Positions 24,072-39,915 of a stretch of 64,000 nucleotides of DNA are shown one piece after another. The notes below the pieces were generated by a model, which searched no databases, was not told where the DNA came from, and saw only the letters and a program-made list of their open reading frames with translations. The DNA lies in NCBI RefSeq assembly GCF_900313025.1, contig NZ_OMPQ01000011.1:62001-126000 (forward strand), in the 5' to 3' direction. The stretch comes from Pseudophaeobacter sp. EL27. GTDB taxonomy: Bacteria; Pseudomonadota; Alphaproteobacteria; Rhodobacterales; Rhodobacteraceae. How positions within the stretch are numbered: the stretch's first letter is position 1; each line of letters begins with the position of its first letter. The translations under genes were made by a program, and so were the position numbers.

Positions 24072-24410
24072 CTCGGCTCTCCTCTGACGCGCCTTTATGG
24101 CAGCTCAGGCAAAAAGAAGAAGTACAGTTTCTGTTACAGCCCCATCACCGTTGCTGATGGGAGGAGCGGATAGGCCTACAGTCTGGCTGGCTCGGGGGCT
24201 GGGTGCTCCATACCAGAACCTGCAGGCGGCCCTCCGACATCAACGCCGTCTACCGCCTCGCAGCAGGATTTGAAGAACATGTCTGCTATTTTTGGCGAGT
24301 TTCAGGACCTATTTGCCTATCCCGAAACTCGCCGAGATTCTTCAAAATGAGCGACTTTGAATGTCTCACGAACATTTATCGGCGTCACGAACAACCGTGG
24401 GGCATCCTAC
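24072..24410. other. Gene-free left flank of the mobile element
   Basis: The region upstream of rarD holds its promoter and what was originally the sequence downstream of gyrB. It contains a 10-bp perfect inverted repeat (GGCGAGTTTC at 24294-24303 with GAAACTCGCC at 24324-24333, 20-base loop) and, near the right edge, two TCACGAACA direct repeats 19 bp apart. No convincing gene is seen. Confidence 0.6.
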
Positions 24411-24411
24411 A
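24366..24411 (-). repeat. Probable end of a second, older transposon abutting the element
   Basis: Read on the minus strand from 24411 the sequence starts TGTAGG and then carries TTCGTGA at 21-27 and again at 40-46, a 19-bp period. This mirrors the architecture of the right end of the main element (TGTAGG, box, 19-bp period), but with a different box sequence. No second end or transposase belonging to it is seen, so it would be a remnant. A related GTTCGTGA occurs at 24550. Confidence 0.45.
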
Positions 24412-24415
24412 ATAA
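24411..24415. repeat. 5-bp target-site duplication AATAA, left copy
   Basis: AATAA directly precedes the TGTAGG left terminus, and the same five bases directly follow the right terminus at 37477-37481. A 5-bp duplication is what TnsB/TniA-type transposases of the Tn7, Tn552 and Tn5053 groups leave. Confidence 0.85.
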
Positions 24416-24440
24416 TGTAGGGCCGAACATAAACTTGCAC
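24416..24440 (+). repeat. Left terminal inverted repeat
   Basis: TGTAGG followed after 6 bases by CATAAACTTGCAC, an 11-of-13 match to the right-end box, with identical spacing. Confidence 0.8.
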
Positions 24441-24480
24441 TGTGTCGGCGCTTTTATTGAGGAAATTTCATCTTCATATC

Positions 24481-24517
24481 GCTAACTTTGCACTCAATCT
24501 TGACCATAACTTTGCAC
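24481..24517 (+). repeat. Subterminal transposase-binding-like boxes, left end
   Basis: GCTAACTTTGCAC at 24481-24493 and CATAACTTTGCAC at 24505-24517, 24 bp apart start to start. The second is identical to the right-end boxes. Both point inward in the same sense as the terminal box. Confidence 0.8.
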
Positions 24518-24520
24518 CCA

Positions 24521-24756
24521 ATTTTGGCGGCTTTCCAAGCGTTGCTAACGTTCGTGATCTGCGCATCCCAAAGGAAGCGAACGGCCCAAAGCCACCGCTG
24601 AGCGCTATTTTGAAATGCTGCAGTGCAGCTCACCCGATGCGGTCATTGCCCCGATGTGCAGCATTATTGGTAGCCAGAGGCCTGACACACGGAGTGTTCA
24701 GCCATTCGTAGCGGGTTTATTGCCTGCTATTAGCATATTTCCTTCGGCCTAAAACA
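24521..24756. other. Gene-free segment inside the left end
   Basis: Between the subterminal boxes and the thiolase terminator there is no credible gene. The stretch around 24561-24600 (GCGCATCCCAAAGGAAGCG and on) resembles debris often seen around insertion sequences, but I cannot name a source. Confidence 0.45.
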
Positions 24757-24787
24757 CAGCACATGCAGCAAGCGACTGCTGCATGTG
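24754..24787 (-). terminator. Terminator of the cargo catabolic operon
   Basis: CACATGCAGCA (24760-24770) pairs perfectly with TGCTGCATGTG (24777-24787) with a 6-base loop; on the minus strand the stem is followed by CTGTGTTTTA. It is 57 bp past the thiolase stop. Confidence 0.75.
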
Positions 24788-24843
24788 TCAGGTGGTCAAA
24801 AAATAGTCAGGCGATGTTCAACCTGAACCCATTTCACCAGATG

Positions 24844-26028
24844 TTAGGCGACTTCAAAAAGGGCAGCGACCCCCATGCCTCCGCCCACACACATAGACGT
24901 CACCACGTATTTTACGCCACGGCGTTTTCCTTCCAACAGGGCATGTCCAACCTGTCTGGCCCCCGTCATGCCATAGGGGTGGCCAATGGAAATCGCGCCA
25001 CCATTCACATTGTAGATCTTCGGGTCGATGCCAAGGTGATCACGACAGAAGAGAGCCTGACAGGCGAAGGCCTCGTTCAGCTCCCAAAGCCCAATGTCTT
25101 TGATGTTCAGACCGGCGTTCTTTAGCAACTTGGGAATGGCATAAATTGGGCCGATCCCCATCTCTTCCGGTGCGTTTCCTGCAACAGCCATGCCGCGATA
25201 AATGCCCAGTGGAGTGAGGCCCTGCTGTTCGGCCATTTTTCGGTCCATCAGCACACAGGCTGATGCTCCATCTGAAAGCTGGCTTGCATTTCCGGCTGTG
25301 ATCGAACCACCTTCGACAATCGCATTCAGCTGACCAAGTGTTTCGGCCGTGGTGCCCGGCCTGTTGCCTTCGTCCTTTGACAAGGTCACTTCTTCCAGGG
25401 TCTCTTCCCCGGTTTCTCGGTTCTTAACTCTCTTGATAGATGTGATCGGGACGATCTCATCGTCAAAGGCGCCAGCGTCCTGAGCCCGTGCTGTCCGCTC
25501 CTGCGAAAGTGCCGCGTATTCATCTTGGGCCTCACGGCTTAGCCCAAAGGTGCGCGCGACATTTTCGGCCGTCATTAACATCGGCATGTAAGCATGTTCA
25601 GATTGGGCGGTGACACTTGGGTCCTTTTCATCGCCAGCCCATTTCAGATATGCATTTTGCACTGCCGAGATATTCTCTTGCCCCCCTGCAACCGCAACAT
25701 CCTGCCCATCGACAATGATCTGTTTTGCGGCCGTCGCAATGGCCATCAGTCCCGAAGAACACTGCCGGTCGATTGTCTGACCTGCAACTGTGTTGGGAAG
25801 ACCTGCCGCCAATGCAGATAGCCTTCCAACATTCATCCCGCCTGTTCCGGCTGTCAAAACCGACCCGACGACAACATCTTCGATCAACGCGGGGTCTACG
25901 CCTGCGCGTTCAACCGCATGGGCAATGGCATGGCCCATCATGGTCGGTGATTTGATGTTGTTTAGCGCCCCCTTGAAGGCCACGCCAATTGGGGTTCGTG
26001 CAGTTGAGACGATAACGGCTTCTCTCAT
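24844..26028 (-). CDS. Thiolase (acetyl-CoA C-acyltransferase) of the element cargo
   Basis: The 394-residue product cleaves a 3-oxoacyl-CoA with CoA to acetyl-CoA and a shortened acyl-CoA. The nucleophile C90 is in QTIDRQCSSGLMA, the catalytic His in GGAISIGHPYGMTGAR and the second Cys in VTSMCVGGGMG. Length is normal. The ATG at 26028 overlaps the stop of the upstream hydratase-dehydrogenase gene by 4 bp (ATGA), so the two are translationally coupled and probably form one pathway. It is the last gene of the operon. The chain it acts on is inferred only from neighbours. It differs from the second thiolase in this window at 50140-51315. Confidence 0.92.
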   Translation of the reverse strand: MREAVIVSTARTPIGVAFKGALNNIKSPTMMGHAIAHAVERAGVDPALIEDVVVGSVLTAGTGGMNVGRLSALAAGLPNTVAGQTIDRQCSSGLMAIATAAKQIIVDGQDVAVAGGQENISAVQNAYLKWAGDEKDPSVTAQSEHAYMPMLMTAENVARTFGLSREAQDEYAALSQERTARAQDAGAFDDEIVPITSIKRVKNRETGEETLEEVTLSKDEGNRPGTTAETLGQLNAIVEGGSITAGNASQLSDGASACVLMDRKMAEQQGLTPLGIYRGMAVAGNAPEEMGIGPIYAIPKLLKNAGLNIKDIGLWELNEAFACQALFCRDHLGIDPKIYNVNGGAISIGHPYGMTGARQVGHALLEGKRRGVKYVVTSMCVGGGMGVAALFEVA

Positions 26029-28145
26029 GAATTTTCCTTTTTGGCATCGAAATGCTCTGCAAGTGTCACGCCAGAAGACACTAATTCTGTCAACAAACGC
26101 GCAGGCGTGAACCACATTTCACCGTAGGCACCAAGTGACTGTCGATAATGGTTCATTCGGTTCAGAACATGGGCCAACCCGATTTCATCGGCATAATGCA
26201 TCGGACCTCCACGCCAATTTGGGAAGCCATAGCCATTGGCCCAAATTAGATCACAATCACCGGGGCGCGTTGCGATGCCTTTTTCCAAGATCAAAAAACC
26301 CTCGTTGATCAGAGGATACAGGCACCGTTCAAGGATTTCCTGGTCGTTGATATCCCGGCGGGCCACGCCATGTTCTTCTGCAAGTGCGGCGCTTATTTGC
26401 GTGATCTCGGGGTCTTCGGCCCGTGTGCGGCCCTCATAGAGGTAACTTCCACGTCCGGTTTTCTGACCCAACCGGCCCAATTCAAACAACCTGTCCTGAA
26501 CCGCCTGATATGCCGGGTCATGGGCAATTTCATCTCGCCGTTCCTGACGCACGCGTGCGCCCACATCGACTCCAGCCAGATCTGCCATCGCGTGAATGCC
26601 CATGGCCATGCCAAAATTCTCGAGGACATCATCCACCTGTTTGGGGGTCGCCCCCTCCAGAAGCAGACGCGAGCCTTCGCGGAAATACGGCTCCAGCATC
26701 CGGTTTCCAACAAACCCGTAGCACACGCCCACCGTGACAGGGAGCTTTCGGATCTTCTTGGCGGTTTTGATGGCCGTCGCAATGACGTCAGCTGCAGTTT
26801 TGGCGCCACGCACCACCTCCAGCAACCGCATGATGTTTGCAGGGCTGAAGAAATGAAGACCAATCACATCTTCCGGACGAGACGTGACTGCGGCGATTTC
26901 ATCAATGTCCAATGTCGATGTGTTCGAGGCCAGTATGGCACCTTGTTTTGCATGTCGGTCCAAGTTTTCGAAAATCTGACGTTTGACATCCATGTTTTCA
27001 AACGCCGCCTCGATGATCAGATCGGCATCGCTCAGGTCTGCATAGTTAAGCGCCCCTGAGGCGTTAGACGAGAAGATCTGAGCGCGATCAGCACTCAGCC
27101 GTCCCTTGTCGACAGCACGTTGAAAATGCTGAGATATTTGATCCAACCCCTGATCCAGAGCGCCTTGTGTGGTTTCCAATAACGTGACCGGATACCCGGC
27201 CTGAAGAAAGGCGATGGCAATACCGCGTCCCATTGTTCCGGCCCCAATCACCGCGACCGATGCGATGTCACGTGGCCGGTCCGTGCGGGTAACGCCCGGA
27301 ACCTTGGTGCATTCGCGCTCAGCAAAGAACAGATGGCGACCCGCACGCGATTGCAGCGTATCCAACAATTCGGCAAAACCTGCTTTTTCTTGCGCCAGCC
27401 CCGCCGTGAGTGGCAATTCGCATGCGGCCTGAATCGAGGTCAGGCATCGCTGTGGAGCAACAAGATTTCGGGTTTTCGCCTCGATCCCGCGGCGGAATTC
27501 CGCAAGAAACCCCTTCGGATCAGGGTGGGTAACCTGCATGTCTGCGCAAATGCGCTTAGGCGCTTCCAGACGGGCGATTTCGGTGGCGAAATCCACAACC
27601 CGTTTATGAAAGTCCTGGTCGTTCTCGAACAGCTTGTCGACCACTCCGCACGACAGGGCAAACTCCCCGCTTACCGGGTCCCCTGACAGGATCATGCGTG
27701 TCGCGGCTTCTAATCCGGCAATCCGTGGCAGTCGTTGGGTGCCCCCAGCGCCGGGCAGCAGGCCCAGCTTGATCTCGGGCAGGCCCATCAGCGCATCTGG
27801 CGTCGCAACACGGTGGTCACAGGCAAGTGCGATTTCTAATGCCCCGCCCATCGCCGGGCCCGCGATAGCCGCGATAACCGGGATCCGACATGCCTCAACC
27901 GTCAGGCACAGGTCAGGCAGATCCGGCTTGTCCCACACGGCCCCTGTACGAAACTCTGCGATGTCGGCTCCTCCGCAAAAAAGCGGCAGGGCCGAGCGCA
28001 GAACGATAGACTGGATTTGGTCATCGGCATCCAACTCTTGAATGGCGGCCGATAGCGCCTTTCGCATTTTCAGGCCAAGGGCATTCACGGGCGGGGCGTT
28101 CAGCTCGATACAAGCGACGCCACCAATGCGTTCAATGAAAATCAT
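26025..28145 (-). CDS. Fused enoyl-CoA hydratase / 3-hydroxyacyl-CoA dehydrogenase
   Basis: The 706-residue product has an N-terminal crotonase domain (about 1-190) with oxyanion-hole and catalytic segments CGGADIAEF, AMGGALEIALACD and LPEIKLGLLPGAGGTQRLPR, in which both catalytic glutamates are present. A 3-hydroxyacyl-CoA dehydrogenase follows: NAD-binding VIGAGTMGRGIAIAF (about 295), catalytic HFFSPANIMRLLEVV, and two C-terminal dimer domains with GFVGNRML. The fusion resembles FadJ/FadB-type proteins, 706 residues being normal. It lies 11 bp behind the cupin gene and overlaps the thiolase start. It would hydrate an enoyl-CoA and oxidise the 3-hydroxyacyl-CoA. Confidence 0.93.
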   Translation of the reverse strand: MIFIERIGGVACIELNAPPVNALGLKMRKALSAAIQELDADDQIQSIVLRSALPLFCGGADIAEFRTGAVWDKPDLPDLCLTVEACRIPVIAAIAGPAMGGALEIALACDHRVATPDALMGLPEIKLGLLPGAGGTQRLPRIAGLEAATRMILSGDPVSGEFALSCGVVDKLFENDQDFHKRVVDFATEIARLEAPKRICADMQVTHPDPKGFLAEFRRGIEAKTRNLVAPQRCLTSIQAACELPLTAGLAQEKAGFAELLDTLQSRAGRHLFFAERECTKVPGVTRTDRPRDIASVAVIGAGTMGRGIAIAFLQAGYPVTLLETTQGALDQGLDQISQHFQRAVDKGRLSADRAQIFSSNASGALNYADLSDADLIIEAAFENMDVKRQIFENLDRHAKQGAILASNTSTLDIDEIAAVTSRPEDVIGLHFFSPANIMRLLEVVRGAKTAADVIATAIKTAKKIRKLPVTVGVCYGFVGNRMLEPYFREGSRLLLEGATPKQVDDVLENFGMAMGIHAMADLAGVDVGARVRQERRDEIAHDPAYQAVQDRLFELGRLGQKTGRGSYLYEGRTRAEDPEITQISAALAEEHGVARRDINDQEILERCLYPLINEGFLILEKGIATRPGDCDLIWANGYGFPNWRGGPMHYADEIGLAHVLNRMNHYRQSLGAYGEMWFTPARLLTELVSSGVTLAEHFDAKKENS

Positions 28146-28156
28146 GGTTGGAATCC

Positions 28157-28843
28157 TCAGTTAAGCTGTTGGGCAAGATCCTGTTCAATCTCAGCCCAAT
28201 CATCAAAGTGGATCACGTTGCAGCGTGAATTTATGTTCTCAAGCCAGACAAAGACCGAAATAAATGGTTTGTCATAGACACGGGTGGCATGAGGTTCGCC
28301 CGCAGCATTCCAAATCAGCGAACCGGCCGGGTAATCCTGCCAGTCTTGGGTCCCAAATCGCCAACCTGTTTTGTCCGATAGATTTAGATACAGCTCGGGT
28401 GCGTCATGGTTATGGTCCCGGTAAAGAGTGCGCGCGCCAAGCATGAAGATGCCTAAGTTAAAGTCCGGATGGTGATACCCACATGCATCAGGTCCGATGA
28501 GTAAACTGTGCAGGTTGCACTTTTTGTACCCGTCTCCCAGATCAGCGCCGGGAGGGTAGAATTGGGCATTGTCTTCGCGCCAGACCAGGTCATCTTTGGC
28601 AGCCGTCAGGCAATTCGCAATTTCATGTAATTCGGATGCGGAAATTCCTGAAATGGCATCTGTTAGTGTCTTATCATGACGGGTCCCTTGGGGAGGCGTA
28701 TCAATGAGTTGCTCGCCCGTCAGGTCCATTGTTGCCAGCTTTTCCAATGTCAGATCAACGCCGCGCACATCTTCGCGGTGGGCCTCCAAAAATTGGATGA
28801 TCGATTGGATAAGTGCTTGAATACGGGAATTTTTGTCTGTCAT
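28157..28843 (-). CDS. Cupin of the DMSP lyase family
   Basis: The 228-residue product carries a C-terminal cupin domain. Metal-site and catalytic residues are visible: H144 and H146 in RDHNHDAPELYL, E150, Y152, and H185 in AAGEPHATRV. The H-x-H-x3-E-x-Y ... H spacing is the one I recall for the cupin lyase DddK (and close to DddQ and DddL), in which the tyrosine acts as base in cleaving dimethylsulfoniopropionate to acrylate and DMS. The N-terminal half is helical, like the DMSP lyase family (PF16867). The ATG at 28843 overlaps the ligase stop by 4 bp. Unlike typical ddd genes it sits among beta-oxidation genes. It may act on a CoA thioester or another sulfonium or ammonium zwitterion. Confidence 0.75.
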   Translation of the reverse strand: MTDKNSRIQALIQSIIQFLEAHREDVRGVDLTLEKLATMDLTGEQLIDTPPQGTRHDKTLTDAISGISASELHEIANCLTAAKDDLVWREDNAQFYPPGADLGDGYKKCNLHSLLIGPDACGYHHPDFNLGIFMLGARTLYRDHNHDAPELYLNLSDKTGWRFGTQDWQDYPAGSLIWNAAGEPHATRVYDKPFISVFVWLENINSRCNVIHFDDWAEIEQDLAQQLN

Positions 28844-30444
28844 GATAATTTGTCCGAACGTGTTGAAATGTCCTGCCGTATGAGTTTTTTGTCGAGCTTG
28901 CCGACGCTGGTTTTGGGAAGCTGATCCACGAAGATTATGTCGTCTGGAACCGCCCATTTTGACAGTTCACCTACTTCGACGCGCGACTGGATTTCGTCTT
29001 TGACGCTCCTGCGTACGAGATCCGGGTCGGTCTCTTTTGCGATTTGGGCAACCAACACTGGTCTTTCCCCCCACTTTGGATGCGAAAGGCCAATCGCGGC
29101 GACCTCTTCAATACCTGCGCAAGATGATGCGATGTTTTCCAGGGCCAATGAGGATATCCATTCACCTCCGGTTTTGATCACATCCTTGAGACGATCTGTG
29201 ATCTGTAGCGACCCGTTTTCGCGGATGAAACCAACATCGCCTGTGTGCAGATATCCACCCGCCCAAAGATCTTCAGAAGCTTGTTCGACCCCCAGATAAC
29301 CCTGTGTCAACCAAGGCGCTCGGGCCACAACTTCGCCGGTTGTTTCACCGTCATGCGGGACGTCCTGCATATCCGGCGTCACAACCCGAAGGTCGACAAG
29401 CGGACCGGGAAAACCGGTTTGGGCCTGGACTTCGGGATCATCACTGGACAGGTCTGCCACAGTCAAAAACGGACAGGTTTCGGACATCCCATAGGCGGCA
29501 TGCAAGGATATCCCCTCCGCCGCCGCGCGATCCTGCAGACCGCGCGGCAAGGCCGCTCCACCAATGATGACTTTCCATTGGCGCAGATCTGTTTTTACGC
29601 ACAGAGGATCATCGAGCACCATTGACAATATGGTTGGAACGCAATGGGAAAATGTGACACCTTCGGAGGCAATCAACTGCAAAATTGTGTCAGGCGTGTA
29701 GCGCCCCGGATAAACCTGACGTAGCCCCAGCATCGTTGCCGCATATGGAAACCCCCATCCATGAACATGGAACAGGGGCGTCAGGGGCATGTAAACGTCG
29801 CCGCGATGAAACCCGGCATTCCCTGAGAATGAGCCAAACCCAGAGGTCAGACCCAGTGTATGAAGCACCAGTTGACGGTGTGTGTAACTTACGCCCTTGG
29901 GATTGCCCGTGGTTCCGGTTGTATAGAACAATGTTGCGGTTTGGTTTTCGTCAAAATCTGGAAAGTGAAAGCTGGTTGAGGCACCCCCAATCCAATTTTC
30001 ATATTCCTCACCATCTCCGATCGGAACAATAGTGATGTCGCGGTCAAAGCCTGACCTGATTTCATCAATTAGTGGCATGAAATCCTGATGCACCATAATC
30101 AGGTCCGGCTGGCCGTGATTGATCGTATAAAGGACCTGCGCAGGTGATAAACGGACATTGATGGTGTGCAGGACGGCGCCCATCATTGGCACTGCAAAGA
30201 AGCACTCAAGATAACGGTGTGTGTCCCAATCCATAACTCCGACACGCATTCCCGCACCAATTCCACTGCCCGTTAGGGTGTTGGCAAGCTGTGCGATACG
30301 CTTGTTGAGTTGCGCATAACTCAGTCGTGTATCGGTTCCGCTAACGATTTCCTGGGTAGCAGATACCAGCTTTGATCGGGTCAAAAGCTGTTTGATCAAT
30401 AGCGGGTAATCAGACCCTTTTGGTGTCGGTGATGTGGGAAGCAT
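28840..30444 (-). CDS. AMP-forming acyl-CoA ligase of the element cargo
   Basis: The 534-residue product activates a carboxylic acid with ATP and CoA. ANL-family motifs are visible: the P-loop YTTGTTGNPKGVSYTHRQ (about 174-190), YGMSETCPFLT, GYLHTGDVGFI and the C-terminal catalytic lysine in KTSVGKLDKKLIR. It resembles medium/long-chain ligases and the DmdB-type ligases of DMSP demethylation. It is the first gene of the four-gene cargo operon and is divergent from the LysR gene. The substrate is inferred to be the imported zwitterionic acid. Confidence 0.9.
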   Translation of the reverse strand: MLPTSPTPKGSDYPLLIKQLLTRSKLVSATQEIVSGTDTRLSYAQLNKRIAQLANTLTGSGIGAGMRVGVMDWDTHRYLECFFAVPMMGAVLHTINVRLSPAQVLYTINHGQPDLIMVHQDFMPLIDEIRSGFDRDITIVPIGDGEEYENWIGGASTSFHFPDFDENQTATLFYTTGTTGNPKGVSYTHRQLVLHTLGLTSGFGSFSGNAGFHRGDVYMPLTPLFHVHGWGFPYAATMLGLRQVYPGRYTPDTILQLIASEGVTFSHCVPTILSMVLDDPLCVKTDLRQWKVIIGGAALPRGLQDRAAAEGISLHAAYGMSETCPFLTVADLSSDDPEVQAQTGFPGPLVDLRVVTPDMQDVPHDGETTGEVVARAPWLTQGYLGVEQASEDLWAGGYLHTGDVGFIRENGSLQITDRLKDVIKTGGEWISSLALENIASSCAGIEEVAAIGLSHPKWGERPVLVAQIAKETDPDLVRRSVKDEIQSRVEVGELSKWAVPDDIIFVDQLPKTSVGKLDKKLIRQDISTRSDKLS

Positions 30445-30674
30445 ACAGGCGAAATCCTAACGTTCATTCGCCTACCAAATTGACATTGTACGGTGGGTAG
30501 AAGAACTGAAAGAAATTTTCGGTCGTCAAGGATTTCTAACCAATCAAAGCGCGCTGAAAATTGCATTTTTTCAGCCGAACGATATATGAGACGGTGAAAA
30601 ATCCTGACAGAGTTTCGCCCTACGTCAGCAAACCCCGCTAAGCGATGAACGTATTGGCCCAATGAAAAGGATCA
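30445..30674. promoter_or_regulatory. Divergent promoter region between ligase and LysR genes
   Basis: The 230-bp gap between divergent starts is AT-rich for this genome and is where a LysR-type regulator would bind to control both transcripts. I cannot point to a single T-N11-A palindrome with confidence. Confidence 0.5.
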
Positions 30675-31601
30675 TTGCTATTGCCCCATATCCCCACATT
30701 GGTTTCGCTCCGCGCCTTTGAGGCCGTCGCGCGACACAAGAGCTTTCGCAAAGCCGCTGACGAGATTTGTGTGACGCACGCGGCGGTCAGCCACCAGATT
30801 AAGGCGCTGGAGAAATCAATTGGTGTTCAACTCCTGGAACGCACAAGCCGGTCGGTTGAGCTGACCCCGGCAGGTGAACAGTACTATCCGCCGATCCGCG
30901 AACATATACGTGGAATAATCAAGGCTACACAGCGGCTTCAGGCACCAGAAGAACCGGACGTTTTGCTCGTTCAGTCATATGCCAGTTTCAATACGATGTG
31001 GTTGCAGCCCAGGCTGGCAGATTTCCTCCAAGACAATCCGAACACACGTGTCCGCATTATCTCAACCTTTGAAGACGGTGATTATGATATGCACCGGTTT
31101 GATGTTGGCGTGTTCAATGCGCCACCATTTGACAAGAGGTTTGACTACAGCCCTCTGTTTGAAACTGACATTTACCCAGTTTGTGCGCCCGAAGCTATGT
31201 CCCCATCAAGCACTGGACTATCGCTGGAAGAGTTAAAGAACTTCCTGTTGTTGAGTGTCCCGAGCACTTGGAACGAACCAGATGACTGGGACCGCTGGCT
31301 GGATGCGGCAGGTCTCAGTCGTGAATCCATGAAATTTGGATCGATCTTTGATAATTATCCGTTGGTTCGAGAGGCCGTTCTGAACAATCATGGGATCAGT
31401 GTTGCACGTGCGCCGTTTTGCGCGCGCGACCTTGAAAGAGGGCGTTTGATAAAGCCGTTCGATTTATCAGTGCCGGAGCCGGGGCAGTGGTATCTTGCGA
31501 CCCCAAAAGAAAGAACGCGGAACCCAAAGCACGAGACCTTCGTCGACTGGTTGTTCGAACAAATTGAAGCCGACCCAACCATGCGGTTCTTTCGCGGTTG
31601 A
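30675..31601 (+). CDS. LysR-family regulator (GcvA-like), likely activator of the cargo operon
   Basis: The 308-residue product has an N-terminal winged HTH (LVSLRAFEAVARHKSFRKAADEICVTHAAVSHQIKALE, about 8-45) and a type 2 periplasmic-binding-like effector domain (about 90-300). The pattern resembles the GcvA subgroup. The start is a TTG at 30675 (AAAAGG just before), or a TTG at 30681; no ATG fits. The gene is the only one on the plus strand of the element and separates the catabolic operon from the transport operon, which points to control of either or both by the imported substrate or a pathway intermediate. Confidence 0.88.
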   Translation: MLLPHIPTLVSLRAFEAVARHKSFRKAADEICVTHAAVSHQIKALEKSIGVQLLERTSRSVELTPAGEQYYPPIREHIRGIIKATQRLQAPEEPDVLLVQSYASFNTMWLQPRLADFLQDNPNTRVRIISTFEDGDYDMHRFDVGVFNAPPFDKRFDYSPLFETDIYPVCAPEAMSPSSTGLSLEELKNFLLLSVPSTWNEPDDWDRWLDAAGLSRESMKFGSIFDNYPLVREAVLNNHGISVARAPFCARDLERGRLIKPFDLSVPEPGQWYLATPKERTRNPKHETFVDWLFEQIEADPTMRFFRG

Positions 31602-31617
31602 TTGGATCGGTGCAACG

Positions 31618-32688
31618 TTAACGAATGTCGCCTGAGCGCGAAGCGTTTGCATGGGCCGGAACGAGAGCCTTGACCAGTTCCTTCATGTCCAGAAAACCGA
31701 CAGGGACGCCTTCAGAACACACACGATAGTTCTTTTGTGTGTCACCTTCCGATAGTTCGATAACGCTTTCGAGAGTCGCATTTTGATCGACTTCACCTGC
31801 GATGTGATCGCCATCTTCGCCAGGATGCATGATGGAACGAACACGTAATACTCTTGCCCGGTTGATGTCTCCGACAAAGTCCTCGATGTAGGGATCAGCT
31901 GGATTAAGCAGGATCTCTTGCGGCTCGCCTTGCTGCACCACTGCACCATCTTTCAAGATGACAAGGTGATCCGCCAGTTTCAACGCTTCGTCGAGATCAT
32001 GGGTGATGAACACGATAGTCTTGTGGAGTTCTGTCTGCAGCTCAAGCAGCAGGTTCTGCATATCGGTGCGAATAAGAGGATCAAGCGCCGAAAAAGCTTC
32101 GTCCATGAGCATAATGTCAGAATTGGATGCCAGGGCCCGCGCAATCCCCACACGCTGCTGCATGCCCCCTGATAGCTGATGGGGATAGTGTCCTTCAAAA
32201 CCGGCCAGCCCGACACGATCCAGCCATTTTGCCGCTTCTGCTTCACGCTCGGAGGTGCTTTCGCCGCGCACCTCGAGCGCCATGGCAGCGTTTTGCAGAA
32301 CCGTTCTGTGCGGGAACAGCGCAAATTTCTGAAAGACCATCGACATTTTGGTTTGCCGAAACTGCAACAACTCAGCCGAGGACAAGGTCAGGATATTTTG
32401 GCCGTCGATTTCTATTTCACCCGCCGTAGGTTCGATCAACCTGTTCACGTGCCGGATCAGGGTCGATTTTCCTGAACCAGACAGCCCCATAACCACGGTT
32501 ATTTCTCCGGCTTTCATATCCACGTTGATGTTCTGCAATCCAAGAACATGACCATGTTTTTGAAGCAGCTCAGCCTTTCCCATTCCTGCCAGAACATGCG
32601 GCAAAACTGTCTGAGGTGTTGCGCCGAATACTTTATACAGACCACGGATGCTAAGTTGTGTTTTGCGCGTCATATTTAGATCTCTCAC
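31618..32688 (-). CDS. ABC transporter ATP-binding protein, betaine/proline type (ProV-like)
   Basis: The 356-residue product is an ATPase of the quaternary-amine uptake group. Walker A GLSGSGKSTLIR, Q-loop VFQKFALFPHRTV, signature LSGGMQQRVGIARAL and Walker B DIMLMDEAFSALDP are intact, and a C-terminal CBS-like segment is present. The N-terminal FGATPQTVLPHVLAGMGKAELLQKHGHVLGL is typical for ProV. Start is the GTG at 32688 that overlaps the ProW stop (GTGA), or the ATG at 32673. Third gene of the transport operon. Confidence 0.92.
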   Translation of the reverse strand: MRDLNMTRKTQLSIRGLYKVFGATPQTVLPHVLAGMGKAELLQKHGHVLGLQNINVDMKAGEITVVMGLSGSGKSTLIRHVNRLIEPTAGEIEIDGQNILTLSSAELLQFRQTKMSMVFQKFALFPHRTVLQNAAMALEVRGESTSEREAEAAKWLDRVGLAGFEGHYPHQLSGGMQQRVGIARALASNSDIMLMDEAFSALDPLIRTDMQNLLLELQTELHKTIVFITHDLDEALKLADHLVILKDGAVVQQGEPQEILLNPADPYIEDFVGDINRARVLRVRSIMHPGEDGDHIAGEVDQNATLESVIELSEGDTQKNYRVCSEGVPVGFLDMKELVKALVPAHANASRSGDIR

Positions 32689-33716
32689 CCGTTTTCATGT
32701 GTGACGTTGATACGGGCAAGCGCCGCTTTGGTTGTGCGGTCAAGAACGACCGCAAGCAAGACTATCCCAAGACCGGCAATCAGGCCGACGCCCAATTCCA
32801 GATTGCGAATACCGCGCAAAACAAGAACCCCAAGGCCTGGTGCGGAAACGAGAGAGGCAATAACAACCATCGCAAGGCTCATCATGATGGTTTGGTTGAC
32901 GCCCGCCATGATATTGGGCAGAGCCAGCGGAATTTCGACACCCAAAAGCTTTTGTCGTGCATTCATCCCATAGGCATTTGCGGCCTCGATGACGTCCTTA
33001 TCAACAAGGCGAATGCCCAAGTCAGTCAATCGAATGACCGGAACAATGGCGTAAACAATGATCGCAATTCCGTAAAGTTTGCTTTCGGTCACCGAAAACA
33101 GGAAAATTAGAGGAATGAGGTACACAAAACTGGGCAAAGTCTGAAGCAGATCAAGCAGTGGAAGCATGACCCGCTGAAGGGGGTTCGACTTTGCCATAAG
33201 AATGCCGATCGGAACCCCCAGAATGACACATAGCCCGGTACAAACGAAGATGATCGACAATGTCTGAATGGCAGCGTCCAAGTGGTCTATGACCCCCAGA
33301 AACAGAAACGCGCAGGCAACAAAAATCGTGACGCCGACCGAGCGCGAGACGTACCAAGTCAACCAAAAAAGTGCCGGGAGCAAGATCCACCAGGGAACCG
33401 CTAGAAAGGCCCAAAGAGCACCATCCAAGGCCCAAGATAATGGCTGTGTCATCGGATCCAAAACGAATTTCATCGCATCTTTTGCCGAAAGGAATACGTC
33501 CTCCAAACCTGATGTCATGTCACGGGTTTGCGGAATTGCGGAACAGGATTCATGAAGATTGTCGAGGGAAGGAAAGGGAATGCCGCTGTTTGTCTCGGCG
33601 TTTGCTTCGCCTCTACTTTTTGCCAGCAGCTGCGCCATGCTCATCGGGCCATCGTTGCCCTCTCCACACCAATTTGTTAGGCCAAGCACGTCGAAAATCT
33701 TATCATAGAACGCCAT
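32685..33716 (-). CDS. ABC transporter permease, betaine/proline type (ProW-like)
   Basis: The 343-residue product has a periplasmic-loop N-terminal part (about 1-80) followed by six or so membrane helices and the BPD permease signature EAANAYGMNARQKLLGVEIPLALPNIMAGVNQTIMMSLAMVV, given here in part. ProW homologues form the channel for glycine betaine, choline, proline betaine, carnitine or DMSP. It overlaps the ATPase gene and lies 67 bp behind the binding-protein gene. Confidence 0.92.
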   Translation of the reverse strand: MAFYDKIFDVLGLTNWCGEGNDGPMSMAQLLAKSRGEANAETNSGIPFPSLDNLHESCSAIPQTRDMTSGLEDVFLSAKDAMKFVLDPMTQPLSWALDGALWAFLAVPWWILLPALFWLTWYVSRSVGVTIFVACAFLFLGVIDHLDAAIQTLSIIFVCTGLCVILGVPIGILMAKSNPLQRVMLPLLDLLQTLPSFVYLIPLIFLFSVTESKLYGIAIIVYAIVPVIRLTDLGIRLVDKDVIEAANAYGMNARQKLLGVEIPLALPNIMAGVNQTIMMSLAMVVIASLVSAPGLGVLVLRGIRNLELGVGLIAGLGIVLLAVVLDRTTKAALARINVTHENG

Positions 33717-33783
33717 CGGTCCCGCTTTCTTTTGTCAGGCTGGGGCATCAGGGGCGCCGCAAAGACGCCCCTGATCAATCAGA

Positions 33784-34755
33784 TCATTGCAACAGTGCAG
33801 CGAGGTTCTTACGTGCCGCATCGTTCAGCCATGAGCCCCAGACATCATTGTAGGTGGTCAGGAAATACACAGCACCTTCCTCGTAAGAGGCTTTGTTGTC
33901 TTCGACCCATGCCAGAGTTTCGCCCATCTGCGCATTGGTGAACGACAGATTGGTCATCAGTTCCGAAATTTCTACGTTGTCGGCCATGAAATCTTTGGAA
34001 AGAACTGTGGTTACGACACTTTGCGGATAGTTACTCAATGCTGGCGTTACACATTCCGCCGTAATGTTGCAGGTGTGTTTTGCTGGATCATGTGGGCCCA
34101 ATTCCACCAATGTCATCGGATATTTTCCAAGAATGGAAGACGGCGCCCAGTAGAAACCAAACCAAGGTTCTTTATCTTCAAAGGCCGTGGCGATTGAGGC
34201 AGCAAGCGTTTCACCCGACCCATGAACAAAATTGTCCAAACCCGCATCGATAAGCCCACTTGCCTTCAGTAGGTTGGTGTTCGCGTTGATAGAGACCCAA
34301 CCTTCGGGGCTGTTGTGAAATCGGTTCCCAACCAGCTCTGGATTTGCAACGATACCTTCGATAGTTGCCAGTTCAGGATGTTCCTCAACCAGATAATTGG
34401 GAACAAAGAACCCTTCCACCCCACCATCTGAAAGAACTTCGTTGACCGGAATGATCTTGCCGGAATCGACCAGCCCCTGATATGCAGGCGCTCCGTTGGT
34501 CCAAATCTCGGTCAAAATATCTGGCTTTCCAGTTTCAGCCACCGACGCCAGCGCAGGGATGCTACTTAGCGGGATAGTGGTGACGTCACACCCGTATCCT
34601 TCCTCCATCAAAAATTTCGACACGGCTGTCACGATTTGGGCCGATCCCCAGTCGCCTTGCATAATGGACACTTCACCGCATTCATTTGCTTGGGCCGCCG
34701 AGGCGGTGATTGCCGCTGCAAACACACACCCAAGACCCGCTGATACTTTGAACAT
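33784..34755 (-). CDS. Periplasmic substrate-binding protein for a quaternary ammonium/sulfonium compound (ProX/OpuAC-like)
   Basis: The 323-residue product begins with a signal peptide (MFKVSAGLGCVFAAAITASAAQA, cleavage after AQA). The mature part has the OpuAC-fold segments VSIMQGDWGSAQIVTAVSKFL, ILTEIWTNGAP and PWFGFYWAPSS. Several tryptophans and tyrosines are placed to form the aromatic cage that holds trimethylammonium or dimethylsulfonio groups in this family. No lipobox is visible, so it is soluble. The ATG at 34755 is preferred over an upstream one because it starts the signal peptide. It is the first gene of the transport operon. Confidence 0.92.
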   Translation of the reverse strand: MFKVSAGLGCVFAAAITASAAQANECGEVSIMQGDWGSAQIVTAVSKFLMEEGYGCDVTTIPLSSIPALASVAETGKPDILTEIWTNGAPAYQGLVDSGKIIPVNEVLSDGGVEGFFVPNYLVEEHPELATIEGIVANPELVGNRFHNSPEGWVSINANTNLLKASGLIDAGLDNFVHGSGETLAASIATAFEDKEPWFGFYWAPSSILGKYPMTLVELGPHDPAKHTCNITAECVTPALSNYPQSVVTTVLSKDFMADNVEISELMTNLSFTNAQMGETLAWVEDNKASYEEGAVYFLTTYNDVWGSWLNDAARKNLAALLQ

Positions 34756-35254
34756 TTCTTTCCTCCCTGTAATCGACGAAACGTGGACGGGGAAACGATC
34801 CAAGCCAGAATTCGCCTTGATTATAGCGATGATTAGTATCGACAAGCATGGGAGCGAAGAACTGAAAAGATTTTTGGATCATGTACAAATGATTACCAAT
34901 TGGGGCGTAGGGGACAAAGGCGAGTTTTGTGATTTTCGTTCCCACAAAGGCTTCCCAAATGTGAATTCTCAGCTGGAAATGCCGATGATTTTCGCCTCAA
35001 TCCAACAATGGCAGGAGGTGTCATCGTACACGAGGAGGTCCGGTTTGCGATAAACGCGAGCCTTCCACCGTACTGCAACACAAGTTAATTGGGACTCAAA
35101 CGGCCCTCTAATGCAACGCAGCATCTTGTGCTATGATGGACATTCGAAGGTCTGCATAGCCTCATCCATCCAAGAAGTTCGCACTTGCGGCGAACTTCCG
35201 CTTTCCACCCAACTTCAAAACGATGTTGAGCTTCCGAACAGTTTTGGCGAGTTG
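34756..35254. other. Gene-free region between importer and the HTH/membrane-protein pair
   Basis: About 500 bp with no credible gene. It holds the promoter of the transport operon near its left part. A TTTTGGCGAGTT 12-mer at 35242-35253 repeats one found at 24292-24302 outside the element, and CTTGCGGCGAACTTCCGC-like sequence resembles intergenic debris. No tRNA, hairpin terminator or attachment site is clear. Confidence 0.5.
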
Positions 35255-35485
35255 TCAGTTCTGGTGGTCACCATCATCTTCCACAAGAAGGCTCTTCTTA
35301 TCATCGAGGGGATCAAGAACTTGGTCGAGCTTCTCGAAAGGCGCGGTCTCATGAAACCGTTTTACAAGTTTGGGATCATCAACGGAATCCCGGCCGCGCG
35401 TCCAAACCAGCCAGGTGAAGTAGGCCACTGTCACTGCTGTCATCAAAATGCAAACGATCAAGAAGGCGGTTTCAAACAAAGTCAC
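35255..35485 (-). CDS. Small single-span membrane protein
   Basis: I do not recognise this 76-residue product. Residues about 5-27 form one hydrophobic helix (TAFLIVCILMTAVTVAYFTWLVW), followed by a charged, acidic tail (RFHETAPFEKLDQVLDPLDD). The ATG overlaps the stop of the upstream HTH protein by 4 bp (ATGA), a coupling that suggests both are real and expressed together. Lack of homology impression keeps the confidence moderate. Confidence 0.5.
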   Translation of the reverse strand: MTLFETAFLIVCILMTAVTVAYFTWLVWTRGRDSVDDPKLVKRFHETAPFEKLDQVLDPLDDKKSLLVEDDGDHQN

Positions 35486-36576
35486 TTTGATTTCTCAGCA
35501 ACAGGCGTGACCAATAAGTCGTCGAGCCCTTTTACAAGATCCGATAAAGCGACAAATACCCCACGAGTTGCCTTCCCATCTTGAAAGGCGCCGACAGTTT
35601 TAATGCCCTTTTCGTCTAATTTCTTAACCAACGATCGGGATGTGGTATCGAGCTGTTTGGCCAGAGATGACACCTGGACGTGTGTTGCTTGAAATGCAGC
35701 AAGTGCTTCAGGGGTGATAATTCTCGACAGACCTTGGGAATGGCTACCGAGGTCATGCTCTATCAAACCAGCGTCACACCAATGTGCAATACATTGCTCT
35801 TTCCAGCCTGTGATCCGGGCAACTTCTTGGACCGTCCATCCTTCACCGCAACGATGGCGTTTCAATATGTGTTGCACCTGCGTCTTGGGAAAAGTGAAGT
35901 CGGCGAGCTTTCCCGAAACACTGTCGAGGGCAGGTTTCAGTGCGCCCGTCGCCATCTTTTGATAGGCTTCGATTAAACCTGCCTTGTCCGTGGTGAAACG
36001 TAAATTGAGTTTGCGGAGCGTGACCGTTTCCCCGTCGAACGGAATTGCGGTATCGGCGATCCTTTGAACAAGCTTCTCAAGCTCTTGCTGAGCATGTTCA
36101 CCCCCCACAAGCGGCCCACGCCCTTTGGAAACGGTTGCTGCAAGGACGCCTGCCTCTTCCAGAAGTCGGTATTGGTTCTTTGACACGCCCAAGAACTCCC
36201 GGGTTTGGGTTTTGTCAAATACACCCTCCCGTTCAACCTTGATTTCTTCGGCAATATGCTTGGGGATCATTGTATGTCGGTGGCCAAAACCGCTGTAATC
36301 TACTCTCCCATCAACGAGGCCTTCCGAAACGGCGCTCACAAGGCGCTCAGCTCGGATCCCGATAAGCCGGGCAGCCTCGGCTGCCGAGATCCAGGAACGC
36401 TTGGACTGATCCGAAACCGCACCCCCAGCATATGGCCCATTGAATTGATCGGCGACGACGTTGTTCAGCGCACCGTGAAAGCTGGCAGCTCCGCATCGCG
36501 CAGTGGCTGTAGATAGACGCTGCGCAGGTTTTCCAACATCGTAGCCGTCATCGCGCTGCTCTGATGGACGCCGCAC
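35482..36576 (-). CDS. Multi-HTH DNA-binding protein, possibly a TniQ-type C-terminal remnant
   Basis: The 364-residue frame contains at least four helix-turn-helix-like repeats: WISAAEAARLIGIRAERLVSAV (about 62-83), KTQTREFLGVSKNQYRLLEEAG (about 120), WTVQEVARITGWKEQCIAHWC (about 250) and SLAKQLDTTSRSLVKKLDEKG (about 318). This arrangement reminds me of the C-terminal parts of alphaproteobacterial TniQ/TnsD proteins that pick target sites for Tn7-like and Tn5053-like elements, but no zinc-binding TniQ N-terminus is present. The first about 30 codons lie within a truncated ATPase gene read in another frame, so the true start is uncertain and the gene is probably a 5'-truncated remnant joined by deletion. 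Alternative: a stand-alone regulator. Confidence 0.45.
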   Translation of the reverse strand: MRRPSEQRDDGYDVGKPAQRLSTATARCGAASFHGALNNVVADQFNGPYAGGAVSDQSKRSWISAAEAARLIGIRAERLVSAVSEGLVDGRVDYSGFGHRHTMIPKHIAEEIKVEREGVFDKTQTREFLGVSKNQYRLLEEAGVLAATVSKGRGPLVGGEHAQQELEKLVQRIADTAIPFDGETVTLRKLNLRFTTDKAGLIEAYQKMATGALKPALDSVSGKLADFTFPKTQVQHILKRHRCGEGWTVQEVARITGWKEQCIAHWCDAGLIEHDLGSHSQGLSRIITPEALAAFQATHVQVSSLAKQLDTTSRSLVKKLDEKGIKTVGAFQDGKATRGVFVALSDLVKGLDDLLVTPVAEKSK

Positions 36577-36950
36577 ATCTTCCTCGATTTCAGCCGTCCA
36601 GATTTATCCGCATCACCATACGTCACTCTGAGAATGGCTTCAGCTTTTCCTGCACTATCGACCTTCAACCCGTGCAGGAAGTCCGCTTCATCGTCGAGAG
36701 ACAGTTCTTTGAAGATATAGTCGAAGACAATATCACCTGTTGCCGCGCCTCCCCTGGGAAGGTGAACGTCATCAACGCTGAAGCGCGGATATGGATCATC
36801 GGTCCCTGCGAGAAGTGACCTCAGAGCGTCAACAACAGCTGTCTTTCCGATATTGTTCGGGCCAACGATAATGTTTAACCCCGGCGCGAATTCTATCGTT
36901 GCAGTTTTTATGCGGCGAAAATTTTTAATCGAAAGTGATGCCAGATACAT
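36465..36950 (-). pseudogene. Truncated OLD-family/AAA-type ATPase, N-terminal part only
   Basis: The 161-residue frame starts like an OLD-family ATP-dependent nuclease: YLASLSIKNFRRIKTATIEFAPGLNIIVGPNNIGKTAVVDALRSLL, with Walker A GPNNIGKT near residue 31. It ends abruptly after LQPLRDAE (about residue 154), where full proteins continue for several hundred residues, including the Walker B and Toprim domain. Downstream of that point (about 36488) the sequence belongs to the multi-HTH protein. This is a deletion or insertion junction. OLD nucleases occur in phage-defence systems. Confidence 0.75.
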
Positions 36951-37432
36951 TTTGTCCCTTATGCGCCGTAACGTATTCCACTTGTGACGAATCAGCTTGC
37001 AATAAGCCCATGCGTTGCCTGAATCTTTTCAGAGATAGAATGGTATATTCAACCTTTCGTTGTGAACCCCCAGGGTTCCTCTCGAGACCCATTTTCCGCA
37101 AAAACTCGGCTATGAGCTCAGTTATTAGAGCGTCGTGGAGTTTACTGCAGAAGGCAGAACACCAGGTTGCGGGCCACGATTATCTTATTGGTAGAAAAAT
37201 TTCTAAAAAAAACCCCAGATCGAGGGGAGCTTGAAGGTGACAACGCCTAATGACTGTTCACCTTTCATAGAGATAGTTGAGTTGCTGCAAGTCAATTTGA
37301 GCTCAAGTGCTTGAGTTGATGCATTGTTTAGAGAATGGCCGTACTCCGCCCATTCTCACGAGTTCTGGACCTGCGACCTCCATCAATTTGAGGCCTGCCA
37401 TGGCCCGGTGTTCCTCAAACATTCCCGTCGGA
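36951..37432. other. Gene-free region inside the right end
   Basis: About 480 bp without a convincing gene, relatively AT-rich, containing the presumed promoter of the truncated ATPase gene. A short inverted repeat (GAATGG...CCATTC around 37334-37356) is the only structure seen before the terminal boxes. Confidence 0.5.
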
Positions 37433-37464
37433 GTGCAAAGTTATGCTCTAAGTGCAAAGTTATG
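37433..37464 (-). repeat. Two transposase-binding-like boxes, right end
   Basis: GTGCAAAGTTATG occurs at 37433-37445 and at 37452-37464, exactly 19 bp apart; on the minus strand both read CATAACTTTGCAC, identical to the left box at 24505-24517. Confidence 0.88.
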
Positions 37465-37476
37465 CCTAAACCTACA
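37452..37476 (-). repeat. Right terminal inverted repeat
   Basis: On the minus strand it reads TGTAGG, 6 bases, then CATAACTTTGCAC. Same layout as the left terminus at 24416-24440. Confidence 0.85.
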
Positions 37477-37481
37477 AATAA
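37477..37481. repeat. 5-bp target-site duplication AATAA, right copy
   Basis: Matches 24411-24415. One base separates it from the gyrB stop codon (37483-37485 on the minus strand). Confidence 0.85.
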
Positions 37482-37482
37482 C

Positions 37483-39915
<2,433 letters not shown>

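Follow-up and report, generated by a model that had tools for sequence, protein, structure and literature searches.

A probable non-autonomous derivative of a Rhodobacteraceae Tn7-like lineage at the 3' end of gyrB, with a putative DMSP operon as cargo

Chromosomal attachment genes of Tn7-like elements include glmS, yhiN, comM, parE, and tRNA genes (PMC11406308, in part). Among Tn7-like islands at fixed chromosomal genes are Tn6022/AbaR at comM and Tn6230 at yhiN, and the type I-F3 element Tn7017 has a TniQ-targeted parE site (PMC11406308, in part). Tn7 itself (TnsABCD, attached at glmS) makes a 5-bp duplication, has several boxes per end, inserts in one orientation just past the stop codon of a conserved gene, and possesses a selector in which the TniQ domain is joined to a long C-terminal part (partly PMC11406308, in part; partly general knowledge).

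Here we describe an element next to gyrB in a 64,000-nucleotide stretch of the genome of Pseudophaeobacter sp. EL27 (the window), together with its relatives at the same gene. The genes gyrB and parE are paralogues. The gyrB elements share all the above features with Tn7, but differ from it in the target, gyrB, with insertion 5-6 nt past the stop, and in their end boxes. They resemble Tn7017 in the predicted TniQ targeting of a gene for a type II topoisomerase subunit, and differ in the target being gyrB and in the absence of a CRISPR-like array from four gyrB elements by a crude check; from Tn6022/AbaR and Tn6230 they differ in the target genes, and gyrB stays intact where comM is inactivated (PMC11406308, in part). 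We estimate a probability of roughly 87% that the window element derives, in decayed and non-autonomous form, from a Rhodobacteraceae Tn7-like lineage using the gyrB 3' end as its attachment site, the family being judged by the named relatives of the element.

Borders and content of the window element

The ends of the element and their surroundings are as follows.

24282-24412, minus strand: remnant of an older sister element (its gyrB-proximal end), now beyond the distal border (sequence comparison)
24411-24415: target-site duplication AATAA, gyrB-distal copy (read directly)
24416-37476, minus strand (drawn in gyrB orientation): complete element, 13,061 bp, borders read directly
24416-24440, plus strand: gyrB-distal terminus TGTAGG-N6-CATAAACTTGCAC, box at 24428-24440 with 2 mismatches
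24481-24493, minus strand: internal end box, 2 mismatches (box scan)
24505-24517, minus strand: internal end box, exact (box scan and genome search)
37433-37445, plus strand: internal end box, exact (box scan and genome search)
37452-37476, minus strand: gyrB-proximal terminus TGTAGG-N6-CATAACTTTGCAC (read directly; pattern search; layout in other genomes)
37477-37481: target-site duplication AATAA, gyrB-proximal copy (read directly)
37483-39900, minus strand: gyrB, presumed attachment gene, intact, stop codon at 37483-37485 (recognised by eye)

The element opens with TGTAGG at 24416, closes with CCTACA at 37471-37476, and begins 6 nt past the gyrB stop codon. It thus displays two traits of Tn7-like elements, TGT...ACA termini with several boxes at both ends and a 5-bp target-site duplication (AATAA on both sides). 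The first-pass annotation, which had described a complete, exactly bordered element with a 5-bp duplication and multiple Tn7-type boxes at the gyrB 3' end, was correct to the base; its count of 17 agreeing positions in the 25-base termini was reproduced by eye, and the additional identical boxes were recovered exactly where it had placed them. In the window scan, the box GTGCAAAGTTATG has exact matches at 24505 (-), 37433 (+), and 37452 (+). These are the only three copies in the 4.55-Mb genome (reversed-pattern control, 0), and as all of them lie at the element ends, chance boxes were rejected. Two-mismatch boxes were found at 24428 and 24481. At up to three mismatches, the window contains 17 boxes against a shuffle mean of 13.7, and 26 of 100 shuffles reach 17, which is not above chance; hence only the exact and end-located boxes carry weight. 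The end layout is seen again in other genomes. Of 295 family genomes searched for the exact two-box pattern, the window genome alone contained it. Eight two-ended elements were examined; six have an exact direct 5-bp repeat, while it is imperfect in G414 E2 and inverted in G073.

The empty site that had been predicted was not seen: the flank at the far border is instead a relic terminus left by an older sister element, matching an intact one at 78% across 135 bp. Fifteen gyrB loci from the window genome and its nearest relatives were examined, and two congeners (L036, L037) have no element after gyrB. None of the 15 loci showed the arrangement that the first-pass annotation had set against its own reading, with these genes lying between gyrB and rarD but no boxes.

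The interior of the element consists of cargo genes and machinery remnants.

24844-26115, minus strand: thiolase (cargo)
26025-28145, minus strand: enoyl-CoA hydratase/3-hydroxyacyl-CoA dehydrogenase, FadJ-like (cargo)
28157-28957, minus strand: DMSP lyase-family cupin (cargo; PF16867; PDB 5cu1 'DMSP lyase', E 1.7e-6)
28840-30444, minus strand: acyl-CoA ligase (cargo)
30675-31601, plus strand: LysR-family (GcvA-like) regulator (cargo)
31618-32688, minus strand: ProV-type ATPase (cargo)
32685-33716, minus strand: ProW/ChoW-type permease (cargo)
33784-34845, minus strand: betaine-type substrate-binding protein, OpuAC (cargo)
35482-36485, minus strand: tniQ remnant encoding the last ~335 of the ~620 aa of a TniQ/TnsD-type target selector, after deletion of the N-terminal TniQ domain
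36465-36950, minus strand: gajA-like remnant, residues 1-154 corresponding to positions 1-154 of the 588-position Gabija GajA model (E 2e-64)

The cargo is a putative operon for uptake and cleavage of DMSP, a common marine sulfur compound; we infer the use of DMSP. A deletion scar near 36485 joins the truncated gajA-like gene to tniQ. The tniQ remnant, retained from profile position ~261 and sharing 67% identity with the Ruegeria sediminis TniQ (620 aa), comprises only the C-terminal half of the target selector, whereas relatives have a complete TniQ; its AlphaFold model is poor (mean pLDDT 42). The earlier statement that the element encodes no machinery is contradicted by this 3' half of tniQ. 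The TnsA endonuclease gene is absent from the window copy, as are the TnsB/TniA transposase and the TnsC/TniB AAA+ regulator, both of which are present in L010, G192, G414 E1, and G358. Since TnsB/TniA is missing, the window copy is filed only as a non-autonomous derivative.

Recurrent insertion at gyrB and intact relatives

The first-pass annotation had the location right but was incomplete on it: gyrB is a recurrent rather than an incidental site, and the gyrB position of the element is not random. Of 394 family genomes, 41 have the motif TGTAGG 4-7 nt past a gyrB-like C-terminus, as against 0/394 with the reversed control. Thirty of these loci were fetched and checked, the other 11 being counted on the pattern alone; 29 of the 30 are gyrB, 24 of them with a spacing of 5 nt and 5 with one of 6 nt, and the remaining locus (L083), which is not gyrB, was dropped from the count. 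The end pattern with up to two mismatches was found in 10 of 394 genomes (reversed control, 5 genomes). The four matches not tied to gyrB (L018, L019, L020, L022) were left out; the 16-19 kb examined next to L020 and L022 contained neither gyrB nor machinery. At the class level, the gyrB pattern occurred in 3 of 385 genomes, the window genome and two loci without gyrB by tblastn (reversed control, 4/385).

One could argue that TGTAGG after gyrB is a host terminator or regulatory site rather than a transposon end, the more so as a TniQ of the window-remnant clade is present in just 4 of the 41 motif genomes (G000, G298, G192, G073). Such a host feature is highly improbable, as the motif is missing from 9 of the 15 gyrB loci of the window genome and its nearest relatives, six elements pair it with a distal end in inverted orientation and are flanked by exact direct 5-bp duplications, and the boxes that follow it differ from copy to copy.

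Three intact elements at gyrB, all in one orientation and with exact 5-bp duplications, encode TnsA-like, TnsB (TniA), TnsC (TniB), and TniQ proteins in this gene order.

G192: gyrB element of 27.7 kb, duplication GGCCT
G358: gyrB element of 25.1 kb, duplication GGCGA (outside the 41-genome set)
G414 E1: gyrB element of 25.5 kb, duplication TCGCT

The TniA profile matches TnsB of Tn6677 (9e-38) and of Tn7 (4e-14), and for TniQ there are matches to solved TniQ proteins and a weak one to TnsD (E 0.004). The gene preceding tniA in the relatives encodes a TnsA-like protein with invariant PDF and E-x-K residues; these proteins match no Pfam model and, by sequence, no solved (PDB) TnsA. The whole genomes of G192 and G414 have one TniQ-domain match each. 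The closest complete TniQ belongs to the R. sediminis element (L010), which has the same end boxes and an 82% identical distal end and, unlike the window copy, the complete TnsA-like-TniA-TniB-TniQ set; no gyrB was found within the 51.9 kb read, nor was a second end. Insertion is site- and orientation-specific at a conserved gene, as for other Tn7-like elements, the exceptions being L010 and G073.

The Tn5053/Tn402 family is likewise characterized by TniA/TniB/TniQ, a 5-bp duplication, and repeated end boxes. Assignment of the window element to this family on the strength of these common features is nevertheless very unlikely: the intact relatives have a TnsA-like gene, a long TniQ, and a chromosomal gene as their site, and among solved proteins TniA finds its best matches in TnsB of Tn6677 and of other Tn7-like elements. 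Guide-RNA targeting was rejected on a crude check of repeats and gyrB matches only: the window, G358, G192, and G414 E1 contain no 20-mers repeated at 45-90 spacing, and the longest stretch from the last 200 bp of gyrB that recurs inside an element is 13 bases.

Complete TniQs of the window-remnant clade were found in 2 of 394 family genomes, both inside gyrB elements. When the R. sediminis machinery was compared with 21 gyrB-side regions (three shorter than 7 kb, and the G192 machinery falling just outside its piece), 20 had no TnsA, TniA, TniB, or TniQ match. This result and the rarity of a complete cognate TniQ relative to the 41 genomes with TGTAGG ends weigh against the preferred reading and suggest that many of these ends either are remnants or owe their position to machinery that is more divergent.

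A second copy and the loss of the machinery

The DMSP-cargo element is also inserted at gyrB in Paenihalocynthiibacter styelae, and the two copies are 96-97% identical over 11.4 kb. This likeness might reflect common ancestry of a genomic island or its transfer by homologous recombination at gyrB, with incidental boxes, given that gyrB is a conserved anchor and that the content after it varies among relatives. It is the most improbable of the readings considered: identity is only 74-77% in gyrB itself, the duplications differ (TTATT in the window, i.e., AATAA on the other strand, and TTTTC in P. styelae), and so do the distal flanks. Movement of the island by recombination is contradicted by these observations, which indicate independent insertion after horizontal transfer.

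The first-pass annotation had proposed mobilisation by Tn7/Tn552/Tn5053-type machinery, probably in trans. The Tn7-type part is retained. A mini-transposon mobilised by a helper that shares its end boxes would account for the two exact-ended copies in different genera, both without tniA and tniB, and for the search of the window genome for TniQs of this clade, in which the remnant was the only match. We regard it as unlikely, because the copies have lost their machinery by different deletions: P. styelae retains TniQ from profile position ~495 and a TnsA-like gene, while the window copy retains TniQ from ~261, which fits separate losses after insertion better.

As to possible helpers, another TniQ of the window genome (contig 11, L008) was rejected, since its similarity to the remnant is not significant (E 0.37), it belongs to a different TniQ group, and no exact box is located nearby. 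A TniB family search of this genome gave four weak matches and is uninformative, as 13 of 14 control genomes were also positive. In plasmid records, tblastn with the TniQ remnant gave no match; whole-element DNA gave partial matches to 5 of 72,556 records, the best covering 44% of the query at 79.5%, and none covered >80%.

Proposed course of events and significance

Under the preferred reading, of a Tn7-like lineage attached at gyrB, intact members encode TnsA-like, TnsB (TniA), and TnsC (TniB) proteins and a TniQ of ~600 aa. TniQ may act at gyrB much as TnsD does at glmS: its C-terminal part would bind the conserved 3' coding sequence of gyrB, and its TniQ domain would then recruit TnsC, followed by TnsA/TnsB. 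Presumably by cut-and-paste chemistry, the element would be inserted 5-6 bp past the gyrB stop in a single orientation, generating a 5-bp duplication and leaving gyrB intact. The window copy probably brought in the putative DMSP uptake and cleavage operon, and a later internal deletion would have removed tnsA, tniA, tniB, and half of tniQ.

In the literature searched, gyrB was not found named as a Tn7-like target, and this gene would join the few chromosomal genes at which Tn7-like elements are known to attach; three intact gyrB elements are available for direct tests. The fixed site makes such islands easy to list in any family genome by reading the sequence after gyrB. We see about even odds for a broader proposal, in which an undescribed, widespread Rhodobacteraceae Tn7-like lineage homes to the gyrB 3' end via its own TniQ/TnsD, stacks there in tandem when end boxes differ enough (as in the window and G414), and is a main entry route for defence genes and for marine catabolic operons, that for DMSP cleavage among them. 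For the putative DMSP breakdown operon, the element would provide an exactly bordered physical mechanism of horizontal movement between marine genera.

Borders and contents of the window element

Both borders of the transposon are read directly in the window. On the distal side, AATAA (24411-24415) is followed by TGTAGG... from position 24416, and on the gyrB side ...CCTACA (37471-37476) is followed by AATAA (37477-37481), the element measuring 13,061 bp. Searching the 4.55-Mb genome for the exact 13-base box gives three copies, none of them more than about 100 bp from an end of the element. The gene names gyrB, rarD, and clpB were assigned by reading open reading frames.

Features of the window element and its flank, contents in order from the gyrB side
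37483-37485, minus strand: gyrB stop codon
24416-37476, minus strand: the element, containing
1: GajA-like (Gabija) ATPase, first ~154 aa
2: deletion scar near 36485
3: TniQ, C-terminal ~335 aa
4: betaine-type ABC transporter
5: LysR regulator
6: acyl-CoA ligase
7: cupin, DMSP lyase family
8: FadJ-like enzyme
9: thiolase

Judging by its gene families, the cargo may provide DMSP uptake and cleavage. Three plasmids, two from Leisingera and one from Phaeobacter, carry related operons (~79% identity, 42-44% of the element covered). At 36465-36950, the truncated GajA-like defence gene abuts the tniQ remnant at the deletion scar.

Relatives with the same TniQ and the copy in Paenihalocynthiibacter styelae

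With the remnant of TniQ, the target selector, as a query, three loci were retrieved from GTDB genomes. The Ruegeria sediminis locus encodes a TnsA-like protein and a TniA carrying a Mu transposase C-terminal domain, as well as TniB and a TniQ of 620 aa, the latter with the TniQ domain at its N-terminus; the same boxes come after tniQ, and its distal end is 82% identical over 68 bp to that of the window element. Within the 51.9 kb read there, neither gyrB nor a second end was found. The second locus, from P. styelae, contains the same DMSP cassette, likewise directly after gyrB. The third is an element of 10.5 kb in an uncultured Aliiroseovarius (genome G414); its ends are the same, tniQ persists in it as a remnant, and among its cargo are genes for a Rieske oxygenase with its reductase and for a lyase. 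Across 394 genomes of the family Rhodobacteraceae, the TniQ profile matched five: TniQ is complete in G192 and G358, both at gyrB, a remnant at gyrB in EL27 and P. styelae, and interrupted in G073. A second TniQ of EL27, complete and from a different group, is located close to the end of contig 11 (203 kb).

The P. styelae and window elements align in one stretch of 7950 bp at 96.9% identity and in another of 3482 bp, which contains the distal end, at 96.2%; for gyrB DNA the figure is 74-77%. Read in gyrB orientation, the P. styelae element is flanked by a TTTTC duplication and that of the window by TTATT, and the distal neighbour is a clpB-like gene in the former, whereas the rarD side occupies this position in the latter. 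The P. styelae element is split over two contigs, one for each end, and the junction across it is inferred because both contigs stop at one and the same position in the fadJ-like gene. Neither copy retains tniA or tniB, which were lost by deletions that differ between the two, and in P. styelae a stop interrupts the tniQ remnant. This comparison shows that the DMSP element was inserted at gyrB independently in the two genomes.

Intact and stacked elements at gyrB

Three intact elements at gyrB have machinery genes for a TnsA-like protein, TniA, TniB, and TniQ, all in one direction and pointing away from gyrB.

Intact elements at gyrB, with exact 5-bp duplications
G192: 27.7 kb, GGCCT
G358: 25.1 kb, GGCGA
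G414, first element (E1): 25.5 kb, TCGCT

A three-protein TniA profile matched TnsB of Tn6677 (9e-38) and Tn7 (4e-14), and the TniQ profile matched solved TniQ proteins and, weakly, TnsD. Among the genes carried by the G358 and G192 elements are defence-like and transporter genes. In one G358 segment (L151, 3309-14004), a helicase-nuclease and a protein matching the candidate defence family PDC-M26A were observed; four of its five large open reading frames had no Pfam match at 1e-6. There are exceptions to this layout. The G073 machinery faces gyrB, and the element is flanked by an inverted instead of a direct repeat, as if a segment had been inverted. The duplication of E2, the second G414 element, is imperfect. 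When R. sediminis proteins were compared with 21 gyrB-side regions, 20 gave no machinery match, and a TniQ family search found no match in 12 of 26 genomes.

In G414, E1 and the Rieske oxygenase-type element follow gyrB in tandem and differ in box type. In the window, the stretch 24282-24412, past the distal duplication, matches part of the locus holding the gyrB-proximal end of E1 (L139; 135 bp, 78% identity) and the gyrB-side end of G395 (125 bp, 76% identity). It is thus what remains of the gyrB-proximal end of an older sister transposon that held the site first, and it now lies beyond the present distal border. Box types are clearly unlike between the stacked elements in both G414 and the window. 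This might fit target immunity restricted to like ends, a weak suggestion, since in G358 the distal duplication is followed by a further TGTAGG end whose box differs less, and G200 has another such second end.

gyrB as a recurrent insertion site in Rhodobacteraceae

We compared 15 gyrB loci, from EL27, 11 congeners, and three other family members. TGTAGG (TGTAAG in one, L044) occurs 4-6 nt past the gyrB stop in six of them and is absent from nine. In two loci with no element (L036, L037), gyrB runs into the rarD side of the window at 86% identity.

Attachment sites named in a 2024 review of Tn7-like elements are glmS, yhiN, comM, parE, and tRNA genes (PMC11406308), and the term "gyrase" is absent from it, as from a Tn7 cargo survey (PMC8649781); "gyrB", "gyrase", and "parE" are absent from "Modularity and diversity of target selectors in Tn7 transposons" (PMC10293859). 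In PMC12452197, gyrB is a phylogenetic marker. A full-text literature search covering the main texts of mostly open-access papers, and judged on titles and abstract starts, yielded no gyrB target of Tn7-like elements, TniQ, or TnsD; nor did any title or abstract start describe one for Tn7-like elements in Rhodobacteraceae or for genomic islands "downstream of gyrB".

Among the 394 family genomes, TGTAGG 4-7 nt past a gyrB-like C-terminus was found in 41, and the reversed control in none (0/394). The spacing among the 41 matches listed is 5 nt in 33, 6 nt in seven, and 4 nt in one. All but one of 30 fetched loci are gyrB, the exception being the 4-nt match; in these 29, TGTAGG follows the stop at 5 nt (24) or 6 nt (5), and duplications and boxes differ among them. 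At the class level, the pattern matched 3 of 385 genomes and the control 4 of 385. The three are EL27 and two genomes whose matching loci show no gyrB by tblastn; therefore, as judged by the TGTAGG/gyrB pattern, the phenomenon is seen only in this family.
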